From a virus, in IMG/VR virus record IMGVR_UViG_3300044684_000361, positions 1 through 64,000 of that record: a stretch of DNA of 64,000 bases; one strand, written 5' to 3'. Position 1 is the stretch's first letter; each line of letters opens with the position of its first letter. Under the pieces are notes generated by a model. That model saw nothing but the letters and a program-made list of their open reading frames with translations. It did not search any database and was not told where the DNA came from. A program made the position numbers and the translations under genes. Shown here piece by piece: positions 1 through 19,876 of this stretch.

Positions 1-1
1 G

Positions 2-1192
2 CTCCTAACCAAGTATGGCCATCCTTCTACGCTGGTGCGCGAGATGCGCAACGGGCAGCTAGGTAAGCAGATATATGAGGATGTTAGAGACGGCAAGATA
101 CCGAAGGATGAGGCAGTAGCCGCAGTCTCGGTCGCCGATACTCCTCCTCAGCAGCAGGAAGAAACAACGCCTGCGCAGACAGTTTCCAGCGAATCGCCTC
201 CCGCGATGCCTTCAGAAATCAATATTAACCCTCCTCAATCGGAGCAAGCCGTGTCTGCAATGCCACATCAGGAAGTCTTAGGCGCAGCTAATCAAATGGT
301 TGATATTCTCGAGCAACTAATGGCGAGCGCGGCTAGCGCGGGATCTAAGGCAGTGCTAGACGCTGATACCGTTCGTTCTATCGTTAAGGACGTTCTAAAG
401 ACTGAAGCGGTCGGAATTCACACGGTAGAGATTAAGACGGGTGATAGCGTCATTGGCAAGGTAGAAGGTAAGACACATATAAAGTTTGAGCATGTGCTCA
501 AGACCGTCTCAACAAGAGTTCAGGGACGTAGGCTACATGTCTGGGCTGTAGGCCCGAGCGGCTCCGGTAAATCGTATTTGGCTTCTCAAGTCGCCAAAGC
601 ACTGAGCTTGAACTATTACAGTACCTCGGCCATCCAGTCGAAATATGATCTTATCGGCTTTGTATCTCCGACCGGAGCGGAAGCCACGCTCAGAACTCCA
701 TTCCGCAATGCTTTCGAGAATGGCGGATTGTTCGCTTGGGATGATATCGATGCTAGCGACCCTCGTGCGTTTGTGGCGTTCAATGAGGCTTTGTCTAACG
801 GTCGCTTTGCTTTTCCCGACAAGGTAATAGAGCAACATACTGATTTTGTCTGTATGGCTAGTGCTAATACGTGGGGTAGTGGTGCCACGGCTGATTATGT
901 TGGCCGCAACAAGATTGATTCAGCTACTCTCTCGCGATTCGTACGCATCGAGATTGGATACGATGAGCAGCTAGAGCGCGAGATAGTAGGAAATCACGAG
1001 TGGGCTACATTCATTCAGCAGATACGTGCAAAGGTACAAAAGGAGGGGGTTAAGATTCTGGTAACTCCGCGCCATACGCTGCAGGGAGTAGCTCTGCTAG
1101 AAGCTGGCATGTCACGCACTGATGTAGAGAGTTACACAGTCTTTGCCGGGCTGGACAGTGACACTGTAGCTCGTCTACGCCGTTCTGTCTAA
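2..1192 (+). CDS. CobS/MoxR-type AAA+ ATPase, 5' end outside window
   Basis: The reading frame is open to the left edge, so the N-terminus is missing; the GTG at 35 is probably internal. After a Pro/Gln-rich linker comes a AAA+ core: Walker A GPSGSGKS encoded at about 551-574, a Walker B-like stretch FAWDDIDASD near 735-765, and a sensor-1 candidate ASANTWG near 860-880. This arrangement resembles the CobS/MoxR (AAA_5) group, which remodels partner proteins using ATP. The gene directly downstream is its likely partner. The family level is fairly sure, the substrate unknown. Confidence 0.8.
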   Translation, partial: LLTKYGHPSTLVREMRNGQLGKQIYEDVRDGKIPKDEAVAAVSVADTPPQQQEETTPAQTVSSESPPAMPSEININPPQSEQAVSAMPHQEVLGAANQMVDILEQLMASAASAGSKAVLDADTVRSIVKDVLKTEAVGIHTVEIKTGDSVIGKVEGKTHIKFEHVLKTVSTRVQGRRLHVWAVGPSGSGKSYLASQVAKALSLNYYSTSAIQSKYDLIGFVSPTGAEATLRTPFRNAFENGGLFAWDDIDASDPRAFVAFNEALSNGRFAFPDKVIEQHTDFVCMASANTWGSGATADYVGRNKIDSATLSRFVRIEIGYDEQLEREIVGNHEWATFIQQIRAKVQKEGVKILVTPRHTLQGVALLEAGMSRTDVESYTVFAGLDSDTVARLRRSV

Positions 1193-1202
1193 GACATGAT
1201 GG

Positions 1203-2057
1203 ATGGGCACTAACATGCAGAACGTCATTAATCTAGGACTACATACCTGGCATGATTTTGTCGATACTGCTGCTAAGCGTTTGAGAGAGCCGCAAATATC
1301 CGGGTATGGAGCTAGCACTGCAGTACACAGGGGTTATGAATGGGATCTTGGAATTGATCTTGCTAAAGCTGTCAAAATGGCCAAAGAGGGTTGGCCAGAA
1401 GGGGTTAAAAACATCTCGGCTCAATTAGACAAGTTACCTCCGGAATCTGAGGTTTTGCCGGAATGGGAAATGTCCGTAGCGGGTGCAATCTGTAATGTAC
1501 CGGCATTTATTGCTGGTGAACCGGAATGCATGTTCGCTCTTAATGATTGTCGCCGTCACGCTAGACGCATTGCATTAGCGTTGGATGGTGTGTTTGCAGC
1601 TGCAGTTAATGCCACGGCGGTTAGGAACTACGCGACAGCTGTAGCTGCTACCGCTAGATATTTGGAAGCTAGCGGCATAGATGTAGCCCTTTACAACGTT
1701 AATACAGCAGACATAGTTGCGCCGACCATTTATGGAATCATAATAAAAGACTTAGGGGAGCCGTTGGATGTAGCCAAGGTAGCCTTTGGATTCCATCCTG
1801 CATTTTTTAGGCGAATCGGTTTCGCTTGGCGCGAGATCACTCCTGCCGCATGCAGCGCCAAAATATGCGGGCAGAGTGGCGCCCGCTACGGACATTCACT
1901 TAAATTGACCAACGAGCTGCTGCAGCCGTTGATTCAAGCTGATACGCCGATTGTTCCACTACGTGGGTTTTACGACAACATTCCGCAGCGTGGATCAGTA
2001 AAGCAATACGTGGAAGTAATAAAACAAGATATTGCCGGGGCTATCGCTGCGATGTGA
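1203..2057 (+). CDS. Phage protein paired with the AAA+ ATPase (DUF7192-like)
   Basis: This 284-residue protein starts 10 bases after the ATPase gene; an in-frame ATG at 1215 is an alternative start. Its N-terminal part contains RLREP and, further on, a GWPEG motif within residues 50-70, a combination I recall from phage proteins encoded beside CobS-like ATPases (DUF7192-like). Such ATPases usually act with a dedicated, often vWA-like, partner, so a two-protein complex is inferred. No signal peptide or membrane segment is evident. A strong terminator follows, so the pair ends a transcription unit. Confidence 0.65.
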   Translation: MGTNMQNVINLGLHTWHDFVDTAAKRLREPQISGYGASTAVHRGYEWDLGIDLAKAVKMAKEGWPEGVKNISAQLDKLPPESEVLPEWEMSVAGAICNVPAFIAGEPECMFALNDCRRHARRIALALDGVFAAAVNATAVRNYATAVAATARYLEASGIDVALYNVNTADIVAPTIYGIIIKDLGEPLDVAKVAFGFHPAFFRRIGFAWREITPAACSAKICGQSGARYGHSLKLTNELLQPLIQADTPIVPLRGFYDNIPQRGSVKQYVEVIKQDIAGAIAAM

Positions 2058-2084
2058 TCGCACATATCGAGTGTGACACGAGGG

Positions 2085-2115
2085 GGGCGGCTTAGTGCCG
2101 CCCTTTTTGTTTCTT
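2085..2115 (+). terminator. Rho-independent terminator
   Basis: A 7-bp GC stem (GGGCGGC/GCCGCCC, 2085-2091 with 2097-2103) encloses a 5-base loop and is followed by a T-rich tract (TTTTTGTTTCTT). It lies 28 bases after the stop of the ATPase partner gene and ends that unit. Confidence 0.9.
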
Positions 2116-2190
2116 ACATTGGTCTAGCCTTTCGTGTTGCTTTCAACTTTGTAGATGCCGCTATAGCTCTGAATTTCCTTCAATTATTTA

Positions 2191-2221
2191 GGTGTACGTT
2201 TTAGCTATTTTGTGGATACTA
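2191..2221 (+). promoter_or_regulatory. Promoter-like element, copy 1 (GGTGTA-N18-GATACTA)
   Basis: This 31-base element has GGTGTA, an internal TAGCTAT, and GATACTA. The same words in the same order and total length recur at 4318-4348. Both copies lie about 52-55 bases before a start codon. The element does not match the host sigma-70 consensus well and may be read by the phage sigma-like factor encoded at 3688-4293; that link is inference. Confidence 0.45.
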
Positions 2222-2275
2222 CAGCTATACGGCATAGCAATATCGCTATTAACCGGAAACAGGAGCTTCCCAAAA

Positions 2276-2743
2276 ATGCTATTACGGAAATTCGATTACA
2301 CCGTCGATCCGACTGCTCATGTAGTCAGCGCAGGTACGGCTGCGGATACCTTTCTGGCAAAGCAATGTCCTGTACTCGTCGGCGCGTTACGGGAACAGGC
2401 GGAACGCACCAGCAGTGCAAAGCTGTACAGCATGAACACGCGTGCGAGGAATGACGCTAAAGCTGGCATCTTGCTGGCGGCGCTGTTCGGATTCAAGAAG
2501 GTTTCCGACATTCCCGACGAGTCCGTGCGGCAGCATGTTGCTGAAGCTGGACTGATTATGGCGGTCACTACATCTGAGATTGCTCGCCGCTACCTGAACA
2601 ACACTCTGGAACCGGAGCTGCACGCTGGCGATGAGGCGTCGAATGAATGGGCGGCAGCCCATGAGGAAGAGAATGGCGGCGACATAGGACCTACGGAGTC
2701 ACAGCCTGCCGTGGTCAATGGCGCTTCTGACGGGATCGTTTGA
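2276..2743 (+). CDS. Hypothetical phage protein
   Basis: The protein has 155 residues. The ATG at 2276 is chosen because CAGGAG lies about 10 bases upstream; an earlier GTG at 2192 would put the start inside the promoter-like element. The body is Ala-rich and helical (residues 30-110), and the last 40 residues are acidic and probably disordered. It contains no motif I recognise. It is the first gene after promoter-like copy 1, and the membrane-protein gene follows 6 bases later. Confidence 0.65.
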   Translation: MLLRKFDYTVDPTAHVVSAGTAADTFLAKQCPVLVGALREQAERTSSAKLYSMNTRARNDAKAGILLAALFGFKKVSDIPDESVRQHVAEAGLIMAVTTSEIARRYLNNTLEPELHAGDEASNEWAAAHEEENGGDIGPTESQPAVVNGASDGIV

Positions 2744-2749
2744 GCCGCC

Positions 2750-3247
2750 ATGTTGCTCAGGGAGGCATTTTGCGGAGGGATGGGTAGCACAGATGCTGCC
2801 TCCCTCCTGGCTCGTCTAACACTTGGGACGTTCTACTTGCTGGCTCGCTTCCGCAGTTTCTACGATCCAAGCAAGCCTCCTGGCTGCCGTCTCTTTAATC
2901 CAGACAGATTCGGTAGCCTGTCTAAAAAGCTCTGCAGCTGCGGATTCTCAAGCAATCTGCGGCTGTGGACTTGGGTAACTGCCTCTGTCGAGGTTTTTGG
3001 CGGGCTAGCCCTGATCACTGGATTGCTCACGACAGCTGCCGCTGTCGGTCTACTGATTCTGACGCTACGTGCAACGGTATGCACGGCATGGGCAAAGATC
3101 AGCGAACAGAATCCGGTAGACGGGATTGATTGCGTAGCCTGCTACTTGTGGCGAGTCGAGGGAGTCTACATAGCACTGGCCCTTGTAATTCTGATGTTAG
3201 GGCCAGGTAGATTCTCAATTGATTGGTTGCTGTGGGGAGTGCCTTAG
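2750..3247 (+). CDS. DoxX-like integral membrane protein
   Basis: The 165-residue protein has about four hydrophobic segments: near the N-terminus (SLLARLTLGTFYLLARF), around residues 80-105 (VFGGLALITGLLTTAAAVGL), and at the C-terminus (YIALALVILMLGPG). Several cysteines lie between the segments. Arrangement and size resemble the small DoxX family of four-helix inner-membrane proteins. A start at ATG 2780 is also possible. Its role in the phage is unknown. Confidence 0.55.
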   Translation: MLLREAFCGGMGSTDAASLLARLTLGTFYLLARFRSFYDPSKPPGCRLFNPDRFGSLSKKLCSCGFSSNLRLWTWVTASVEVFGGLALITGLLTTAAAVGLLILTLRATVCTAWAKISEQNPVDGIDCVACYLWRVEGVYIALALVILMLGPGRFSIDWLLWGVP

Positions 3248-3270
3248 GGGAAGGGAAGAGAAGAGGGAAC

Positions 3271-3318
3271 AGGGGGCTAGGGTAGAGACTACGTGCAGGA
3301 TCTTAACCTTAGCCCCCT
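3271..3318. terminator. Hairpin between convergent genes
   Basis: A perfect 9-bp inverted repeat (AGGGGGCTA at 3271-3279, TAGCCCCCT at 3310-3318) lies between the rightward membrane-protein gene and a leftward gene. The 30-base loop and lack of a T-run make it a weak or bidirectional terminator candidate. Confidence 0.4.
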
Positions 3319-3326
3319 ATGGAACA

Positions 3327-3653
3327 TCACGCAGATCCTTTCATGATGTATTCACGGAAAATCCATAGGGCTATTTCCTTCTTCTCATCCTCTGAGAGCT
3401 GCATACCACCGCTTGTAAATCTAGTCATAGCTATAGGCGTACTCAAGTTGCCTCCCGCAGGAGCGCTGTTATCTACCTTATCGACCATGTATTGCCCAAT
3501 CCACGCATACAGCTGGTATGGCTGTATTTCGAGCTCGCGTTTAATACGTTCGTATGCCTCCCGTCGATCTTTAGCCGACAGTATTTCTTCAGCCTTAGCC
3601 AATTTGGTTTTGTCATCCCATGACTTTCTCCTATCCTGAGACGCATTAGCCAT
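3327..3653 (-). CDS. Hypothetical protein, lone minus-strand gene in the replication block
   Basis: This 108-residue, charged, mostly helical protein has many Lys/Glu/Asp residues in its first half (SWDDKTKLAKAEEILSAK). The ATG at 3653 is preceded by GAGG at a spacing of about 8; a longer frame to 3737 has no better start. It is the only minus-strand gene among the first 12 kb and is divergent from the sigma-factor gene, with overlapping 5' ends. A regulatory role such as control of the sigma factor is possible but unsupported by any motif. Confidence 0.6.
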   Translation of the reverse strand: MANASQDRRKSWDDKTKLAKAEEILSAKDRREAYERIKRELEIQPYQLYAWIGQYMVDKVDNSAPAGGNLSTPIAMTRFTSGGMQLSEDEKKEIALWIFREYIMKGSA

Positions 3654-3687
3654 GCATAGTACCTCGTTGTCGCCCTCTGGCGACGCT

Positions 3688-4293
3688 ATGTTAAATAGCT
3701 CTGAAAAGACCGTAGCCGATATTATTGCTATTGTCAACTACGCGATCGGCAAGCTACGTAGATCCTGGAATATTACAGATTTAGAGAGAGATGATCTACA
3801 GCAAGACGGATACATAGCCGCAATAGCCGCTAATAAGACCTATGATCCACGACTATCGGCCTGGAGCACGTGGATACTCAAAAGGGTAAATGGGCAGCTC
3901 AAAACCTCTCTAGCTCGGTTACGCAGTTGCGGCATTACGGGCAGTCGCTTACGGACGTTACAAATGAACGAGATCCGTCAGCCGCGCATTGACTCTATTT
4001 CTTCTTCTTACATGACTTGGGACAGGGATGACGAGGAGTCTGATCACGAATTTGAAATAGCGGACGAGAGCCAAGTAACAGACGAGGCTGCTGACACTAC
4101 CTCGATTATGGAAGCACTGGGTAACTGTGTATCTGAGCGTAGCCGCCAGGTACTAACCCTCTACTACGGACTAGACGGAAGTCCGTCCCTGACGACTGTA
4201 CAGCTAGCCGAACGTCTGGGGTTTTCCAAAAAACATGCCTTTGCTCTGCTGCAGCGTGCCCAGAACGAGGCGCGTGCCTGCCTGGCTCATTAG
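3688..4293 (+). CDS. Phage RNA polymerase sigma-70-family factor
   Basis: The protein has 201 residues. The N-terminal half has a region-2-like helix (LERDDLQQDGYIAAIAA, then DPRLSAWSTWILKRV). The C-terminal half has a region-4-like segment (SERSRQVLTLYYGLDG, then LAERLGFSKKHAFALLQRAQ), the usual HTH that contacts the -35 box. Regions 1 and 3 are reduced, as in small alternative sigma factors. A start at 3652 is possible. The two shared promoter-like elements at 2191 and 4318 flank the gene and are its obvious candidate targets. Confidence 0.75.
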   Translation: MLNSSEKTVADIIAIVNYAIGKLRRSWNITDLERDDLQQDGYIAAIAANKTYDPRLSAWSTWILKRVNGQLKTSLARLRSCGITGSRLRTLQMNEIRQPRIDSISSSYMTWDRDDEESDHEFEIADESQVTDEAADTTSIMEALGNCVSERSRQVLTLYYGLDGSPSLTTVQLAERLGFSKKHAFALLQRAQNEARACLAH

Positions 4294-4317
4294 AGCCGGG
4301 CGAGCTAGCTACTGGTA

Positions 4318-4348
4318 GGTGTATAAAAATAGCTATCTACAGATACTA
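4318..4348 (+). promoter_or_regulatory. Promoter-like element, copy 2 (GGTGTA-N18-GATACTA)
   Basis: This is the second copy of the element at 2191-2221: GGTGTA, TAGCTAT at 4330-4336, and GATACTA at 4342-4348. It lies in the 106-base gap after the sigma-factor gene and upstream of the primase-helicase operon. A CATAGCAAT word follows both copies (2233 and 4369). Confidence 0.45.
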
Positions 4349-4399
4349 ACAATAGGAGACCTGAAAAACATAGCAATCAAACCCTGTTAGGAGATGTCC

Positions 4400-4660
4400 A
4401 TGGCCACTGCCAAGCGTATCAAGTCCGATCCTCTGCCTCCCCCGCCCGATAAAATACAACTAACTCTGAGCTTGCCAGAAGCCAATACGCTTAAGGCACT
4501 GACAGGGAGTGTCATCGGCGGCATGGATACACCACGCAAGCATACGGATGCAATTTACGATGCCCTACATCAGGCTGGCGTTGACGAATTGTTCCATCTC
4601 GTTGTGCGCAACATAGAATTTGTGCCTAACGCTTTGGATAAAGTCGAGTCTAATGATTGA
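4400..4660 (+). CDS. Hypothetical protein, first gene of the replication operon
   Basis: The protein has 86 residues. TTAGGAGA ends at 4394, which favours the ATG at 4400 over the one at 4394. The middle part (KIQLTLSLPEANTLKALTG) suggests a small beta/alpha fold, but I recognise no family. It overlaps the next gene by 8 bases and leads the operon that encodes the TOPRIM protein and helicase. Confidence 0.65.
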   Translation: MATAKRIKSDPLPPPPDKIQLTLSLPEANTLKALTGSVIGGMDTPRKHTDAIYDALHQAGVDELFHLVVRNIEFVPNALDKVESND

Positions 4661-4925
4661 GAGGCATGAGCTTTGGGATGAGCTCGAAGCGTTTGATCCC
4701 AAATGGCAGCAGCACTATGCCACCACGGAAACAGCAGCAGCAGCAGCTGGCGTATGTGCTCAATGGCATGACTACTGCCGTACACGTAGGCAGACAATGG
4801 CCTGCAATCCTAGACAAGTCGCTGATGTAGCCGGAACGATTCGACGAGAGCAGGAAGCAGCTGCCTCCAGCAGTCTCCCCTATCGACTAGACACAATCGG
4901 GACAGTGAAGGAGATAGCGGAATGA
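4653..4925 (+). CDS. Hypothetical protein upstream of the TOPRIM gene
   Basis: This 90-residue protein overlaps its upstream neighbour by 8 bases and the TOPRIM gene by 4 bases (ATGA). It is helical, with an Ala-rich run and two cysteines. It contains no known motif; a replication-accessory role is suggested only by position. Confidence 0.6.
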   Translation: MIERHELWDELEAFDPKWQQHYATTETAAAAAGVCAQWHDYCRTRRQTMACNPRQVADVAGTIRREQEAAASSSLPYRLDTIGTVKEIAE

Positions 4926-5569
4926 GTCAGAAATGGGAACCAACGCCTAGAGCTAGCAAGACTCCTACTCTGCGGCCATTCGACGGCGAGATAGTCGAGT
5001 TGCCTGATGCAGACGTAGAGTTTTTCCGGGCTGTCTACGAAATATATACTCCATTCTCTACTCGGTACATAAAGCTCAACCCTCATTCTCAACGGTATGT
5101 GCTGCCTATTCTGTCGCCCGAGGGAAAGCTGAGAGGACATGTGCTTAGACAGCCATGGAAGGGAGCGCCGCAGAAACGTCTGCTGTTCTACCCGAAGGCA
5201 GACACGTACATGTCTACTTTCGAGCCGGTGCAGAGCTTCTACGGAGGATGGGATGCGCCGCTCATAATGGTTGAGGATCAGCTGTCTGCAATAAAGCTAT
5301 ACGCCCTTGGCTATCGGTCCGTTGCTGTTCTAGGAACTCCCTACGCTAATGATCCTTTCGGATTCCAGCAGGGAGACAGAGTTGCAGAGCTCGCCAGAGA
5401 GGCAGGTGACAAGGGGCTGATAGTTGCATTAGACAGCGATGCCACTGAATCGGCTTTCATGTTCGCCAAGAAATGGGGCTATGCCTTCAAGAAGATCCGC
5501 GTAGCCATCCTGGACAAGGATTTGAAGGATACGCCGGCCGGCGAGTTTGGGAGGGTGCTCAATGTTTGA
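4922..5569 (+). CDS. TOPRIM-domain protein, primase-like
   Basis: The protein has 215 residues. After an N-terminal region with a zone typical of phage primase-like proteins, IMVEDQLSAIKLYALG (about 115-130) supplies the TOPRIM glutamate strand, and IVALDSDATESAFMFAKKWG (about 165-184) supplies the Asp-x-Asp motif that binds metal. There is no N-terminal zinc finger, so priming may need another protein. Position directly upstream of the DnaB-like helicase supports a role in DNA replication initiation or priming. Confidence 0.72.
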   Translation: MSQKWEPTPRASKTPTLRPFDGEIVELPDADVEFFRAVYEIYTPFSTRYIKLNPHSQRYVLPILSPEGKLRGHVLRQPWKGAPQKRLLFYPKADTYMSTFEPVQSFYGGWDAPLIMVEDQLSAIKLYALGYRSVAVLGTPYANDPFGFQQGDRVAELAREAGDKGLIVALDSDATESAFMFAKKWGYAFKKIRVAILDKDLKDTPAGEFGRVLNV

Positions 5570-5717
5570 GGTTAGGTCGCAATGTATACACGAGCCGCAA
5601 AGCCCCGGCTGCTATTACGTAGAAACCAAGCGGACGGAGCGTAAAGACGCTGAGCAGGACGCAGACCTACTCAAGCTGTTCGGCAAGAAAGCTTGGATTA
5701 CCGAAGTAGATGAATGA
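5562..5717 (+). CDS. Small hypothetical protein between primase and helicase genes
   Basis: This 51-residue gene overlaps the TOPRIM gene by 8 bases and the helicase gene by 8 bases, filling the gap between them. The product starts MFEVRSQCIHEPQSPG and ends in an acidic tail. Its fit into the overlap chain is the main support; the function is unknown. Confidence 0.6.
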   Translation: MFEVRSQCIHEPQSPGCYYVETKRTERKDAEQDADLLKLFGKKAWITEVDE

Positions 5718-6924
5718 TGCAAAGCTTATAGCTTCTGCCATTGCTAGCAGAGAGGCATACGAGACGGTAGCGCCGCATCTGGCAGAAACAGAGTTCAGCC
5801 CGCCTGCACAATTCTGGTGGAAGCTGATAGGGGAATACTATGCGAGAGATAGGAATACTAATAGGGTCGATCTGGATGCTCTCCATACTTTGGGGAGCAC
5901 TCGCGTGGCTAACAACCCCAAGACACGCGAGTTGGTCAACGGTTTTATTCGTGACCTTCCTAATGGTGTCAGCCCTGCTAATGTTGCCCAAGTGGCACTC
6001 GAGCAAAAGCGTCACTCGATCGGAATGGAGCTCGCAGCAGCCATTGCCGCAGGAGACCAAAAGAAGCAAGCAAAGCTCCTGCCTGTCTACCACGAGCTTG
6101 CACAGGCAACCTCATTAACCTCACGGAGGCAGGTAAAGTATGAAAGAGCTACTAGCGTGGATGATTTGTTTAGCAAGGTGGGGGCTGGAAATAGGATTCC
6201 CCTTGCGCCTAGTCGGCTCAATTCCCGCATTAACGGAGGAGCGCTCCCTGGTCACCATATCCTCGTCTTCGGTAGACCGGAGGTAGGTAAGTCCGCTTTC
6301 GCTATCAACTTCGCGGCTGGCATGGCTGTAGCTCAGAACCAGCGGACATTGGTAGTTGAGAACGAGGACCAGATAGACATCACCAAAGCGAGAGGTGTTT
6401 CGAGAGTTACGGGCCTAACAGCGGAGGAGATTGAGGCTGATGTCGCAAAGGCAATTGCCTTATACAAGGACCGCGGAGGGGAGGAACGCCTACAATTTGT
6501 GCAGATGTATCACGGCGGTCCTGATGATCTCATCCCTGTCATTGAGGAGTTTGAGCCGGCAGCTATTGTGCTTAATCAGATTCGTAATCTGGCAGGTGCG
6601 GCTGATGGCATGGTGCAGAGGCTTGAAGAGAACGGGCAAAGGTTTCGAGAGCTGCTGATTAAGTACAGGCTAGTAGGGCTGTCTGTTACGCAGGCTGGCG
6701 GATCTGCTCATAACAAGGCTTGGCTAGACGAGATGGACTTAGACAGCAGCAAGACCGGTCTAACGGGTACTACTGATTTGCAGCTAGGTCTAGGGGCTGA
6801 CGCTGCCATGCTGAGTAAGGGGCAGCGCGCGCTGTCTATCATCAAGAACAAGCTTTCATCAGCTCCTAACTCGAAAGAGGGGCTGTTACTAGAAATCGAC
6901 CCAAGTAGGAGCAAGTTGACATGA
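5710..6924 (+). CDS. DnaB-like replicative helicase
   Basis: The protein has 404 residues. The first 130 residues form a helical DnaB-N-like region. A RecA-fold ATPase follows, with Walker A GRPEVGKSAFA (about 191-201), a Walker B-like strand near AAIVLNQIRNLAG and a C-terminal segment LSVTQAGGSA consistent with motifs of the hexameric 5'-3' helicases. It would unwind the phage replication fork. The preceding TOPRIM protein probably works with it. Confidence 0.82.
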   Translation: MNDAKLIASAIASREAYETVAPHLAETEFSPPAQFWWKLIGEYYARDRNTNRVDLDALHTLGSTRVANNPKTRELVNGFIRDLPNGVSPANVAQVALEQKRHSIGMELAAAIAAGDQKKQAKLLPVYHELAQATSLTSRRQVKYERATSVDDLFSKVGAGNRIPLAPSRLNSRINGGALPGHHILVFGRPEVGKSAFAINFAAGMAVAQNQRTLVVENEDQIDITKARGVSRVTGLTAEEIEADVAKAIALYKDRGGEERLQFVQMYHGGPDDLIPVIEEFEPAAIVLNQIRNLAGAADGMVQRLEENGQRFRELLIKYRLVGLSVTQAGGSAHNKAWLDEMDLDSSKTGLTGTTDLQLGLGADAAMLSKGQRALSIIKNKLSSAPNSKEGLLLEIDPSRSKLT

Positions 6925-7148
6925 ATGCTACAAAGCAATGTGCTGCAGAGACATTCGATATCACTGGTTTGACCAGGGATCAGTTCCTAGCTATTTCCCA
7001 TGCGTTAGGATCAGCATACGGAAACATCGCTTTCGATCTGTATTCGAAGATATGGCCACAGCTGGCGTCTAGCCACTCAGACTACCTTGAAGAAGTGCGC
7101 AAGCGATTTCCTATTGAGCGTGACGGCAAGCAAGTGGAGCTGACTTGA
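6921..7148 (+). CDS. Hypothetical protein
   Basis: The 75-residue protein overlaps the helicase gene by 4 bases (ATGA) and the next gene by 1 base. Its sequence (LTRDQFLAISHALGSAYG) suggests helices; no family is recognised. Confidence 0.6.
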   Translation: MNATKQCAAETFDITGLTRDQFLAISHALGSAYGNIAFDLYSKIWPQLASSHSDYLEEVRKRFPIERDGKQVELT

Positions 7149-7408
7149 TGACTCTTGACAAAGCGAAGCAAATCATTCTGGAGATAGCTGCAGCCCGCAG
7201 GAAGTGGGGTAAGCAGGCGAATCCTCCATACAAGTTGGATGTAATTATGGATGCGCTCGTAGCCATCTCTCCGGAGCTGTCTAAGAGCTGTCCGGAGCAG
7301 CTTATTTCGGCTGAGGAGCTCACCAAGCTGCGAAGGCAGTACGCTGCCTGCCAGAACCGTGAGAAGGCCCGAAACGGTAACGGAGCTGGCTCTATGGGAG
7401 ACCAGTAA
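7148..7408 (+). CDS. Hypothetical protein
   Basis: The 86-residue protein is a single helical domain with two cysteines (SKSCPEQL, YAACQN) and a Gly-rich tail. The ATG at 7148 overlaps the stop of the upstream gene, fixing the start. No motif is recognised. Confidence 0.6.
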   Translation: MTLDKAKQIILEIAAARRKWGKQANPPYKLDVIMDALVAISPELSKSCPEQLISAEELTKLRRQYAACQNREKARNGNGAGSMGDQ

Positions 7409-7834
7409 ATGGTCTGGCTTCGATTCTTTGCCATACAGCTCATAATGCTGACGGCTACTGTGTTGGGCTGGCTGATCCTGATTCCGTTCTGCCTGGCACA
7501 TGCATGGACCGGCTCGTGGGCCGACGAATCTATTAAGGACAAGCGGCCTATAGACCGGTGGGCGTGGCCACCGCTGAACTACGTCTACGGCAATCCAGAG
7601 GACGGAGTATCCGGACAGCAAGCCCTAATCCATGGAGATCAGCCGTACATGCCTAACGCCTGGGCTCCCTGGAGAGCCTACCTGTGGAGCGGCTGGCGTA
7701 ACTCTGCCGATAACCTGAAGTACGTCTTTGCCTGCTCAAGCTGTCCGCTCAAGACGTTCACGCTGTTTGGTAGGCCAGGGAAGATAGGCTGGCAGGAAGA
7801 GAACGGCTACAAAGTTCCGGTTATTGGAAGCTGA
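7409..7834 (+). CDS. Phage membrane-anchored protein
   Basis: The 141-residue protein has one strong hydrophobic segment at residues 5-30 (FFAIQLIMLTATVLGWLILI), then a soluble part with YVYGNPEDG and WSGWRNSADNLKYVF. This Gly-Asn-Pro-Glu-Asp plus Arg-Asn-x-x-x-Asn-Leu signature recurs in phage proteins of unknown function that I recall as a DUF7338-like group. It is the last gene of the less GC-rich left block. Confidence 0.6.
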   Translation: MVWLRFFAIQLIMLTATVLGWLILIPFCLAHAWTGSWADESIKDKRPIDRWAWPPLNYVYGNPEDGVSGQQALIHGDQPYMPNAWAPWRAYLWSGWRNSADNLKYVFACSSCPLKTFTLFGRPGKIGWQEENGYKVPVIGS

Positions 7835-7838
7835 AGTC

Positions 7839-8519
7839 ATGACCAAGGAACAGAAAACCTGTCGCGGACACATGAGCGAACTGCATCGCCTTGCTTGTCC
7901 TATCTGCAACCCAGAGAAATCGACATGTACAACGCCCCTACCGACCGACACGACCCAAGATACTGGCCGAGTCAAGACTACACCTGAAGCGCTCACCTCA
8001 AATGAGCAGGTCTATCGCGACGCGCTTGTCGCCATCCGGGATAGACTCCAATTGCGGCGTAAAAGTCACGAAGACACTCAACGCGACAATGACTACGCAT
8101 ACCAGAACGCGAATGAAGCGCTGTTCGCAACAGGGGCGGGATTCGCCCGAGTCTCTGACGAGACGGCATGTCGTCATGATTGGGTATGCCTGGTCGGTGG
8201 TATCCGCTGTACCCAGTGCGGCGAGCAGATAGCTGCGCGAGAAGTGGAAACGGCGGAATCTAGGGACTATGCGGCCGTTCGGGACGCCCACGACAAGACC
8301 ACCCTAGAGTTGGGGCGCTACAAGAAGGCGCTCTACACCGCTAACGGCTTTCTGATCCAGCTCGGCCGGGAACCGGTCAAGCTCGACTACTCATCCGTGG
8401 AAACGACTGCACCACCAGTGAGCGCACCTGAGAAAGCCTGTGACCACTACTGGCACACAGACGGCTACTGCGTGAAGTGCGAAATGCCACAACAGAAAGC
8501 CTCTGGAGAGCAGAAATGA
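7839..8519 (+). CDS. Protein with several Cys-x2-Cys zinc-binding sites
   Basis: The protein has 226 residues. The ATG at 7839 follows the previous stop by 4 bases; a TTG at 7824 is less likely. Paired cysteine/histidine sites occur near the N-terminus (CRGHMSELHRLACPIC), in the middle (CRHDWVCLVGG then CTQCG) and at the C-terminus (CDHYWHTDGYCVKCE). These look like repeated treble-clef or zinc-ribbon knuckles. From this gene on, the sequence is clearly richer in GC. The function is unknown. Confidence 0.6.
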   Translation: MTKEQKTCRGHMSELHRLACPICNPEKSTCTTPLPTDTTQDTGRVKTTPEALTSNEQVYRDALVAIRDRLQLRRKSHEDTQRDNDYAYQNANEALFATGAGFARVSDETACRHDWVCLVGGIRCTQCGEQIAAREVETAESRDYAAVRDAHDKTTLELGRYKKALYTANGFLIQLGREPVKLDYSSVETTAPPVSAPEKACDHYWHTDGYCVKCEMPQQKASGEQK

Positions 8520-11540: not shown

Positions 11541-11612
11541 GGGCCCGTAGCTCAAAGGCAGAGCAGAGGAACTTCAAGTCCAAAGACGTGGGTTCGAATC
11601 CCACCGGGCTCT
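11541..11612 (+). tRNA. tRNA-like gene with abnormal anticodon arm
   Basis: The acceptor stem (11541-11547 with 11605-11611, one G-U pair), D arm (GCTC/GAGC at 11550-11553 and 11561-11564) and T arm (GTGGG TTCGAAT CCCAC, 11588-11604) are intact. The anticodon region breaks the rules: only GGA/TCC (11568-11570 with 11579-11581) pairs, around ACTTCAAG. If one base is bulged, a 7-base loop CTTCAAG gives anticodon UCA, which would read UGA; without a bulge UUC (Glu) lacks U33. No CCA is encoded (CCG follows). It may be a decayed tRNA, a non-canonical one or an attachment-site relic. Confidence 0.6.
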
Positions 11613-11928
11613 CCGAATTCGAGGCCGTGGTGGTGCTGCGGGTCCGTCAACTTGGAGCCGATGCGAGCGATGCAGCAAACAGAATAGAGGCAAGCCTCAA
11701 AAGTGCGTTATGTGGAAAGCTTTTATTCCCGTCGAGGGAATCCCGTTCCGGTTTTTGGACCGATGCCTGCGCGACTCGCGTTCAGGCTCAGGGTCATACT
11801 GGCCAGGTGACCACGGTGTTGATGACAAAGGAGATCAGGGAAATGAGGTGAATTCCATGCTAGAGACCCTCCTGACAACCCTGAAGCGGATCGTGTTGTT
11901 TCCTTTCGTTCCTACTCAAGAGGTTGTC
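11613..11928. other. 316-base stretch without a confident gene
   Basis: No frame here looks like a normal gene. It holds two small perfect hairpins (ATTCCC/GGGAAT around 11724-11740, and GAGGC/GCCTC near 11690) and a possible early start at ATG 11857 for the next gene. It follows the tRNA-like gene and may carry the promoter of the downstream gene. Confidence 0.5.
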
Positions 11929-14546: not shown

Positions 14547-14797
14547 TGAGCATAAGCAATTATATCTGCGCAGTGGAGCGCTGTGGCAACAAGCTCTCTG
14601 GTCGCGCTCGAACCAACATCTGCCCGAGGTGCCAGGCCGTGGCCCGCTACTGGCGCAATCCCGAGCGCGGGCTCGATGCCATCCTGACACGCCAGATCAA
14701 GTTGGATCTGTGGCAAGCCCGTATGATTTATCTAGGAGGTGTAGACAAGTCCTATGCAAAAGCCCGAAAAGTCATTAGTGCCTCTCGGTCCGCGTGA
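14546..14797 (+). CDS. Small zinc-ribbon protein
   Basis: The 83-residue protein has CAVERCG and CPRCQ (about 8-32), a four-cysteine ribbon. A helix containing ILTRQIKLDLWQARMIYLGG follows. It overlaps the next gene by 44 bases. It could bind DNA, but this is not shown. Confidence 0.6.
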   Translation: MSISNYICAVERCGNKLSGRARTNICPRCQAVARYWRNPERGLDAILTRQIKLDLWQARMIYLGGVDKSYAKARKVISASRSA

Positions 14798-15284
14798 AAA
14801 AGAGATTCTCGCGCATATCAAGGCTGGCAAGAACGTGAAGGAGATCGCCGAGGCCATGGGGATCATGACCAAGAGCGTGCCGGCATATGCTTCCATGCTC
14901 CGCGCAAAGGGATACTTGCCGCCTATTCCGCCGAAGGACGGAAGGCGCAGGCGTACGGAACCTCCGGTGACTCGTGAGGAGGTGGAGAAAGAGAAACTTG
15001 AAAAGGTGCGGGCGAAGGAATCCACGGGGCTTGCGATCCAGCAGGTGGAATCGCGAATGCCCGCTGAGCCGCCTCCGGCCGCTATCGCGGATGTGGAAAC
15101 CCATAATCGCCGCAGGCGGCGTGGCAGTGGCGACGGCGACTATCGCTCGTCGAAGGTATCCATCACGACGCGTGTATTGGCAGAAGAATTGGATAAGTCA
15201 ATCCAACAGTACATTGCTGAAGGGGGGCGCCTGGAAAAGTGGCACCGCTGGGCGATCGTGCTGTGCGGATCGATCCTTGAGTGA
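14754..15284 (+). CDS. LuxR-type HTH DNA-binding protein
   Basis: The protein has 176 residues. TAGGAGG lies upstream of the ATG. The N-terminus (LGPREKEILAHIKAG, KEIAEAMGIMTKSVPAYASM) is a LuxR/GerE-like helix-turn-helix. A basic, Pro-rich linker (residues 60-130) leads to a C-terminal helix with ITTRVLAEELDKSIQQYI. It likely regulates transcription within the phage programme; the target is unknown. Operator site 2 follows directly after the gene. Confidence 0.65.
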   Translation: MQKPEKSLVPLGPREKEILAHIKAGKNVKEIAEAMGIMTKSVPAYASMLRAKGYLPPIPPKDGRRRRTEPPVTREEVEKEKLEKVRAKESTGLAIQQVESRMPAEPPPAAIADVETHNRRRRRGSGDGDYRSSKVSITTRVLAEELDKSIQQYIAEGGRLEKWHRWAIVLCGSILE

Positions 15285-18373: not shown

Positions 18374-18415
18374 TTGCGCGCGCGGATTGTTATTTCTTTA
18401 TAGGAGGAAATGCAC

Positions 18416-19876
18416 TTGTCAGAAACACTACAGAACGTCGGCCGCAAGCTGGTGGCGGACGTGGAGCGTACTGGCGATAAGATCATCATCCCAAGCGGGG
18501 TGACAATCGATCAGGTCATCGACCTGCTCAATCGCCGCAAGAAGTTCGAGGAAGAAGAGACCGTCATCCGCCGCACTTTTCCGGTGTTCCCGCTGGATGG
18601 TGCCGTGGCGCTCGATCGCGCGCTGAACTCTCTTTACGGCTGGGCCCCGGCGATCGCAACGCCCGGCTTCTTCACCAGTAACCCACCGCAGCTCATTCAG
18701 GTGAACGTGGGTCCCAATGAGGTGAAGTCTGTCCCCTGGGGACGCTTCAAGCTGCCCAATGTCGAGGGCCACGTGGATACCTCGATCGATCGCGGCGACA
18801 GCGGCTGCCTCGTATTTCAGGTCGTGGCGACCGTGAAGCGCAAGAATGAGCCCGAGATCAACAAGCTCTTCGAGGTGATCGGCCAGGAGATCAAGGCGCA
18901 CAGCATCTACCGGGGGAAGGCGATCAAGATCCGCTTCCGCGACGATGAGGGTGAGCCGCTGCCCATGCCGAAGCCTGTCTTCTTGGATACTTCGTACATC
19001 AGAGAGGACCAGCTGGTGTATTCCCGCCATGTGATGGATGCGGTGAACACCAATCTCTTTACGCCGATCCGGCGTGCCGCCGACTGCATCCGCAATAAGA
19101 TCCAGTTGAAACGCGGTGTGATCCTGGGTGGTGTGTATGGCACCGGCAAGACCCTCGCGGCAGCAGTCGCGAGTAAGATCGCGGTCGAGACCGGCATCAC
19201 GTACGTCTATGCGGAACGCGCCGATGAACTCAAGGACGCCTTGGAATTTGCCAAACAGTATCAGTCGCCGGCTTCCGTGGTGTTCGTTGAGGATATCGAC
19301 CGGGACATCACTGGCGAGCGCACCCATGAGATGGATGCCGTCCTCAATACCATCGATGGGGTGGACGGCAAGCACCATAACATCATCGTGGTGCTCACCA
19401 CGAACGCCCTGGATAAGGTCCACAAGGCCATGCTTCGCCCTGGGCGCTTGGATGCGGTGATCAATATCACTCCTCCGGATGCAGAGGCCGTTGCTCGCCT
19501 CATCGTCAATTACGGTGGTGGCTTGATCCGCAAGGATGCCAACCTGACTGAGGTGGGTAAGGTTCTGGATGGCCAGATCCCTGCCGTGATCGCGGAAGTG
19601 GTGAAACGAGCCAAGCTCTCGCAGTTGGCGATCCAGCCAGAGGGCACCGAACTGAACGAGATTACCCCAACGGCCCTTCTGGAGGCGGCGCACACCATGG
19701 CGATGCAGATCGATCTGCTGCGCGGTGAGCAGCCTCGCAAGGATCACTCCTCGCTGGAGGAACGCATCATCAAGGTCATTCAGGATGGGCTGTCGGAGAC
19801 GGGCACGGTCACCGAGGAGACCCAGGGTCGTTTGCGCAAGCTCGACAAGGACATTCGCCAACGGCTGGAGATGTAA
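18416..19876 (+). CDS. CDC48/FtsH-type AAA+ ATPase
   Basis: The protein has 486 residues. AGGAGG sits 8 bases before TTG 18416 but only 2 bases before ATG 18410, which favours TTG. The AAA+ core has Walker A GVYGTGKT (about 238-246), a Walker B-like VFVEDID (about 288-295), sensor-1 TTNA (about 327) and the second region of homology RPGRLD (about 340-345). The preceding 230 residues form a substrate domain. No protease zinc motif is seen. It would unfold or remodel a protein or complex. Confidence 0.8.
   Translation: MSETLQNVGRKLVADVERTGDKIIIPSGVTIDQVIDLLNRRKKFEEEETVIRRTFPVFPLDGAVALDRALNSLYGWAPAIATPGFFTSNPPQLIQVNVGPNEVKSVPWGRFKLPNVEGHVDTSIDRGDSGCLVFQVVATVKRKNEPEINKLFEVIGQEIKAHSIYRGKAIKIRFRDDEGEPLPMPKPVFLDTSYIREDQLVYSRHVMDAVNTNLFTPIRRAADCIRNKIQLKRGVILGGVYGTGKTLAAAVASKIAVETGITYVYAERADELKDALEFAKQYQSPASVVFVEDIDRDITGERTHEMDAVLNTIDGVDGKHHNIIVVLTTNALDKVHKAMLRPGRLDAVINITPPDAEAVARLIVNYGGGLIRKDANLTEVGKVLDGQIPAVIAEVVKRAKLSQLAIQPEGTELNEITPTALLEAAHTMAMQIDLLRGEQPRKDHSSLEERIIKVIQDGLSETGTVTEETQGRLRKLDKDIRQRLEM

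Follow-up and report, generated by a model that had tools for sequence, protein, structure and literature searches.

Does a phage sigma factor gene with a copy of the same promoter-like element on each side represent a phage sigma with its own promoter class, used by the replication operon? The question came from a sequence-only reading of the 64,000-base window analysed here, which is the first part of an 81,418-base viral record of IMG/VR (IMGVR_UViG_3300044684_000361). We found GGTGTA-N18-GATACTA at 2191-2221 and 4318-4348, exactly where it had been placed, and the in-register match extends upstream to TAGGTGTA, for a total of 8+7 bases. Thus extended, both elements read TAGGTGTA-N18-GATACTA: element 1 (2189..2221, +), the proposed promoter of the orf2276-doxX unit, and element 2 (4316..4348, +), the proposed promoter of the orf4400-primase-helicase unit. 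TAGCTAT, which had been listed as a further shared part, is present in both but out of register by one base (offset 11 vs 12), and it lies outside the in-register match. The distance to the start codon, given earlier as 52-55 bases, was close: 54 bases to ATG 2276 and 51 to ATG 4400 (45 bases from element 2 to the alternative start ATG 4394). The whole finding lies within positions 1..7994 (GC about 51%), most likely a fragment of a different phage, named A here, from the rest of the record, phage B. We propose that both elements are promoters of phage A, most likely read by the sigma factor encoded between them, a reading to which we give a little less than even confidence.

The sigma-70-like gene reported between the elements was borne out by Pfam, PHROG, and TIGR02937 matches. 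It lies at 3688..4293 (+), with 201 aa from ATG 3688 and the frame open from ATG 3652 (213 aa). TIGR02937 (sigma70-ECF superfamily) scored 50.4 bits against a curated cut-off of 42.9 (49.7 on the genome), Pfam Sigma70_r2 was over its cut-off (8.6e-6), PHROG 351 matched at 1.9e-10, and Pfam Sigma70_r4 was slightly under its cut-off (1.5e-4; 21.6 vs 24.1). Regions 2 and 4 are present, and no region 3 is recognisable in the protein. The single-sequence structure model was poor overall (pLDDT 52), with about 90 for region 4, which resembles solved region 4 structures. Nearly all the Foldseek matches listed for the model were sigma chains or domains, and none reached E 0.001. Judged by these matches, the window gene is a true sigma-70-family protein.

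RpoD residues W434, Q437, and T440 read and melt the -10. Region 2.4 of the phage protein lacks all three and is FliA-like (WSTWILKRVNGQL / FTTYAVQRIRGAM), and its region 4 helix has changed residues at the RpoD -35 contacts. Since both regions differ from RpoD, a non-consensus promoter is expected. Between the two E. coli sigmas compared, the protein is closer to FliA than to RpoD (phmmer 4.5e-8 vs 0.48); its score against the FliA/WhiG subfamily (TIGR02479) was 27.9 bits, below the 189.6 required. An arginine in place of RpoD Gln437 would have suited a G at -12, but this argument was dropped because the alignment shows a glycine there, as in FliA.

In fragment A, the gene order is CobS-like ATPase, DUF7192, terminator, element 1, orf2276, doxX, hairpin, HTH (minus strand), sigma, element 2, orf4400, primase-like protein, and helicase. 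The CobS-like AAA ATPase and DUF7192 genes (35-2057, +) belong to families that also co-occur in Rhizobium, Tunturiibacter, and Mycobacterium phages. The unit preceding element 1 is closed by an intrinsic-terminator hairpin (2078..2113, +; GGGCGGC-TTAGT-GCCGCCC then a T run; fold -25.8 kcal/mol), so a new promoter is needed at that point. Downstream of element 1 are orf2276 (2276..2743, +; 155 aa, no usable family match) and a gene of the same unit for a DoxX-like membrane protein (2750..3247, +; Pfam DoxX 5.2e-7). This protein, directly under element 1, also gave a weak HvfX-family match. A long hairpin (3271..3318; -29.5 kcal/mol, without a T run) separates doxX from the convergent gene of a small possible HTH protein (3327..3653, -; weak HTH_Tnp_1, 2.9e-4, below cut-off), which is divergent to the sigma gene. 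Between the HTH and sigma starts lies a perfect dyad, GTCGCC-CTCT-GGCGAC (3669..3684), a possible operator or hairpin that we would guess to be a putative control site of the sigma gene.

The suggested link to the replication operon holds in that element 2 directly precedes the primase/helicase unit. Its first gene, orf4400 (4400..4660, +), obtained no function from Pfam, PHROG, and TIGR-type family searches. It is followed by a primase-like protein (4922..5569, +), whose match in Stenotrophomonas phage StenR_269 (E 3e-5) is annotated as a DNA primase, and a DnaB-like replicative helicase (5710..6924, +; PHROG 19, 3.3e-27), with 34% identity to that of StenR_269 and about 31% to those of Vibrio phages including VpV262.

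The geometry of both elements is that of a promoter. The -35-like block of element 1 is at 2189-2196 and its -10-like block at 2215-2220; the -10-like block of element 2 is at 4342-4347, and an 18-base spacer separates the blocks in both. From this spacing, transcription would start near 2227 (element 1) and 4354 (element 2), with predicted leaders of 46-49 bases, and a Shine-Dalgarno-like AGGAG precedes both start codons. In the proposed mechanism, TAGGTGTA would act as the -35 and GATACTA as the -10, 18 bases apart. Element 1 would start the orf2276-doxX unit after the terminator, and element 2 the orf4400-primase-helicase unit. The sigma factor encoded between them would bind the host core RNA polymerase and direct the enzyme to both promoters, and the result would be a middle or late gene class including the phage A replication genes. 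We infer promoter activity, start sites, recognition by the sigma, and timing from these features.

The idea of a phage sigma with its own promoter class was supported in part. The real sigma gene and the promoter geometry (18-base spacer, AGGAG) argue for it, whereas the sigma gene itself has no element copy upstream, and only two copies in the 8 kb of phage A also count against it. Early expression of sigma would have to come from a different promoter or via read-through, as proposed for gene 47 of phage 7-11. That this sigma is not close to any described phage sigma, and that it has its own class TAGGTGTA-N18-GATACTA, independent of phiEco32, 7-11, and SPO1, to drive the replication operon, is a tentative proposal that we rate as somewhat less than evenly probable.

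The missing upstream copy, together with the possible HTH protein encoded divergently beside sigma, would also fit elements read by the host polymerase, either with its main sigma and a phage activator at TAGGTGTA (compare MotA at T4 middle promoters) or with another host sigma. The phage sigma would then act elsewhere, for example on late genes outside the fragment. Replication operons are often early or middle and host-dependent, which also favours this explanation. Two positions of the host sigma-70 -10 hexamer, A2 and T6, are retained in GATACT, and with help the element could therefore be read by the host enzyme. Against it, no activator was found and no -35 is recognisable at the right spacing: a search for TTGACA/TATAAT-like promoters with blocks 16-18 apart found no -35 with at least 4/6 matches in either gap. 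We regard reading by the host polymerase as unlikely. The same search bears on the earlier contrast with the TTGACA/TATAAT promoters of the other operons. Neither gap holds a sigma-70-like promoter by this measure, but the comparison itself is invalid because it spans two viruses: those operons belong to phage B.

Could the pair be a chance likeness of two AT-rich leaders? The window holds two matches to GGTGTA-N18-GATACTA vs 0.02 expected from whole-window shuffles. The rest of the 81,418-base record holds no further copy, and matches there with up to three mismatches were fewer than for a reversed-pattern control. Just two sizeable non-coding gaps precede plus-strand genes in fragment A (2058-2275 and 4294-4399), and an element lies in each. 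Among 5000 dinucleotide shuffles of these gaps, 6 gave two in-register blocks with 15 or more matching bases, and seven 7-mers are common to both gaps vs 1.15 expected (P 0.006). These values argue against chance, as does the same distance to the start codons. In its favour, a plain gapped local alignment of the two gaps fell short of significance (267 of 2000 shuffles did as well; P ~0.13), and the 8-kb fragment contains one other 8+7 pair of equal strength (2943/3210; shuffle mean 0.5). That pair is within coding sequence, and what makes the element pair notable is its location in gaps before genes. Its statistical significance is moderate, and it is probably, though not certainly, real beyond chance; we consider pure coincidence improbable.

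The gaps share more than the two blocks, and the shared sequences could be operators of a phage regulator around ordinary weak promoters, with ATAGC/GCTAT as the half-site and not GGTGTA/GATACTA. Gap 1 contains six half-sites and gap 2 three, and the palindromes GCTATAGC and ATAGCTAT occur among them. Those around element 1 (n=6, 2160..2249) form a possible operator array, with 6 vs 0.78 in shuffles. Moreover, the 9-base CATAGCAAT, included in the shared 7-mer matches, is common to both leaders (2233..2241 and 4369..4377, +), at a distance from the element that differs between the copies. Nevertheless, the half-site is frequent all over fragment A (32 copies), the cluster has a P of 0.03 when any 5-mer is allowed for, and the in-register blocks are the longest fixed-spacing matches. 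Operators around weak promoters are thus quite improbable, and promoters read by the phage sigma stay as our preferred explanation.

The record itself has a discontinuity. A 127-base sequence at 7995..8121 is an exact copy of the record end (81292-81418), and no other repeat of at least 25 bases occurs in the record. In a commonly used setting of metaSPAdes the k list ends in 127, and a contig that breaks at a shared k-mer carries an end of this length (PMC10914622). The simplest graph would be a self-closing phage B (73,297 bases, 8122-81418) with the tail 1-7994 leading in. Composition points to the same division: GC is 0.51 in fragment A vs 0.57-0.61 elsewhere, GC3 is 0.52 vs 0.70, and CTAG occurs 35 times in the 8 kb of A vs 0-6 times per 4 kb elsewhere. 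In tetranucleotide usage, the first two 4-kb blocks correlate with B at 0.23 and 0.37, and all others at 0.56-0.92. Codon usage correlates at 0.70-0.73 between A and B, and at 0.96 between the early and structural genes of B. The nearest relatives differ as well: the B terminase has its closest matches in Caulobacter phages GB2A/RLK (42%), and the genes of A point to StenR_269, VpV262, and phiM5. From its sequence, the record is most likely a circular phage B of ~73.3 kb with ~8 kb of another phage joined by assembly.

In a Markov analysis, the change point lies near 7.3 kb and the sequence from there to the join is neutral, which would allow for a short shared module. The join falls within a gene (7824-8519) that is probably a hybrid. 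A non-chimeric record, a natural recombinant in which B truly carries a recently acquired 8-kb replication region with the elements inside the cassette, would suit a junction that falls in frame within a gene, a composition that is intermediate for ~700 bases before the join, and the limited searches of B proteins, in which no replication genes were recognised, but it is improbable given an end repeat of exactly 127 bases, a phage B that self-closes without the 8 kb, and a codon-usage and CTAG gap that exceeds any within B.

Thus, the helicase, primase-like protein, CobS-like ATPase, and sigma most likely belong to a virus other than B, and users of the record would otherwise credit B with them. 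Besides, since the finding lies wholly in fragment A, the lack of further element copies in the record refutes nothing.

Some features of phage B were also observed. A possible transcription regulator (14754-15284, +) weakly matches, in PHROG, both a D5-like regulator (2e-5) and a family of sigma factors (2e-4), and ARAGORN predicted an odd tRNA at 11541-11614 (+) with a two-base anticodon (tc). An ATPase (18410-19876, +), whose relatives are annotated as FtsH-like or as cell-division proteins, shares 52-55% identity with proteins from Pseudomonas phage KPP25 and several enterobacterial phages (Pollock, FSL SP-076, phiEaP8, and Pylas), far closer than the B terminase is to its nearest match.

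Relatives were sought in several collections. The exact TAGGTGTA-N18-GATACTA occurs at at least 118 loci in IMG/VR, approximately the chance level by a rough estimate for 15 fixed bases, and within the stretches examined none of them had a sigma homologue beside the element. At the sensitivity used, no relatives with the sigma were found in IMG/VR, GTDB contigs, INPHARED, and PLSDB; the best sigma match in the collections was that of a Staphylospora phage-plasmid (20%). Single-sequence searches with the sigma, helicase, and CobS proteins gave no relatives. The helicase profile retrieved 80 loci (24-32% identity) and the CobS profile seven, all without a sigma homologue or element. No other contigs were found that share the left end of phage A or the bases before the join, and phages StenR_269, phiM5, Vibrio 1.015.O, and ct52p938 contain no exact element copy.

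Phage sigmas with their own promoters are an already known type, and this pair would be another independent member if shown. Promoters have been mapped for few phage sigmas, and any further sigma/promoter pair is a test of how specificity depends on residues in regions 2 and 4. Here the sigma gene and both candidate promoters fit into 2.2 kb, so the proposal lends itself to tests that use synthetic templates and the core polymerase of E. coli. For phage A, the own-promoter reading is plausible but unproven.

Among the known systems, the late promoters of Bacillus phage SPO1 (CGTTAGA-N18-GATATT) resemble the elements in their 18-base spacer and GATA-type -10, and differ in the upstream block. 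Promoters of FliA/sigma-28, a group 3 sigma, read TAAAGTTT-n11-GCCGATAA (PMC2859248). Their -10 consensus GCCGATAA contains GATA, as GATACTA does, whereas the upstream block and spacing differ and the window protein has no recognisable region 3. In Escherichia phage phiEco32, the sigma gp36 reads tAATGTAtA promoters (PMC8948821). There, as proposed for A, a phage sigma redirects the host RNA polymerase; unlike in A, the promoter is single-element and gp36 lacks region 4, and the window sigma gave no sequence match to gp36 (phmmer 0.41).

Salmonella phage 7-11 offers a parallel that has been tested, and also a reason for caution. A 2015 prediction by pairwise gap comparison gave a TGATGT core (PMC4331800), and primer extension found other promoters (PMC8948821), so pairwise gap comparison has already misled on phage-sigma promoters. 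The 7-11 sigma, SaPh711_gp47, reads bipartite promoters GTAAtg-16-aCTA, and the eight mapped ones serve mostly late genes, with one driving the region of the sigma itself; the authors of that study expected further independent sigma/promoter pairs (PMC8948821). We read GTAA...ACTA at these promoters in the 7-11 genome. Both A elements contain GTA-N21-ACTA, which is weak evidence alone because it is also present at five other places in the record. As in A, the 7-11 sigma is phage-encoded and has region 4, and its promoters combine a GTA-containing upstream block with an ACTA downstream block; the spacing in 7-11 is 2 bases shorter. Homology between the window sigma and gp47 was not detected (phmmer 0.19). 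Since the two sigmas are not detectably related, the likeness would be one of working and not of descent.
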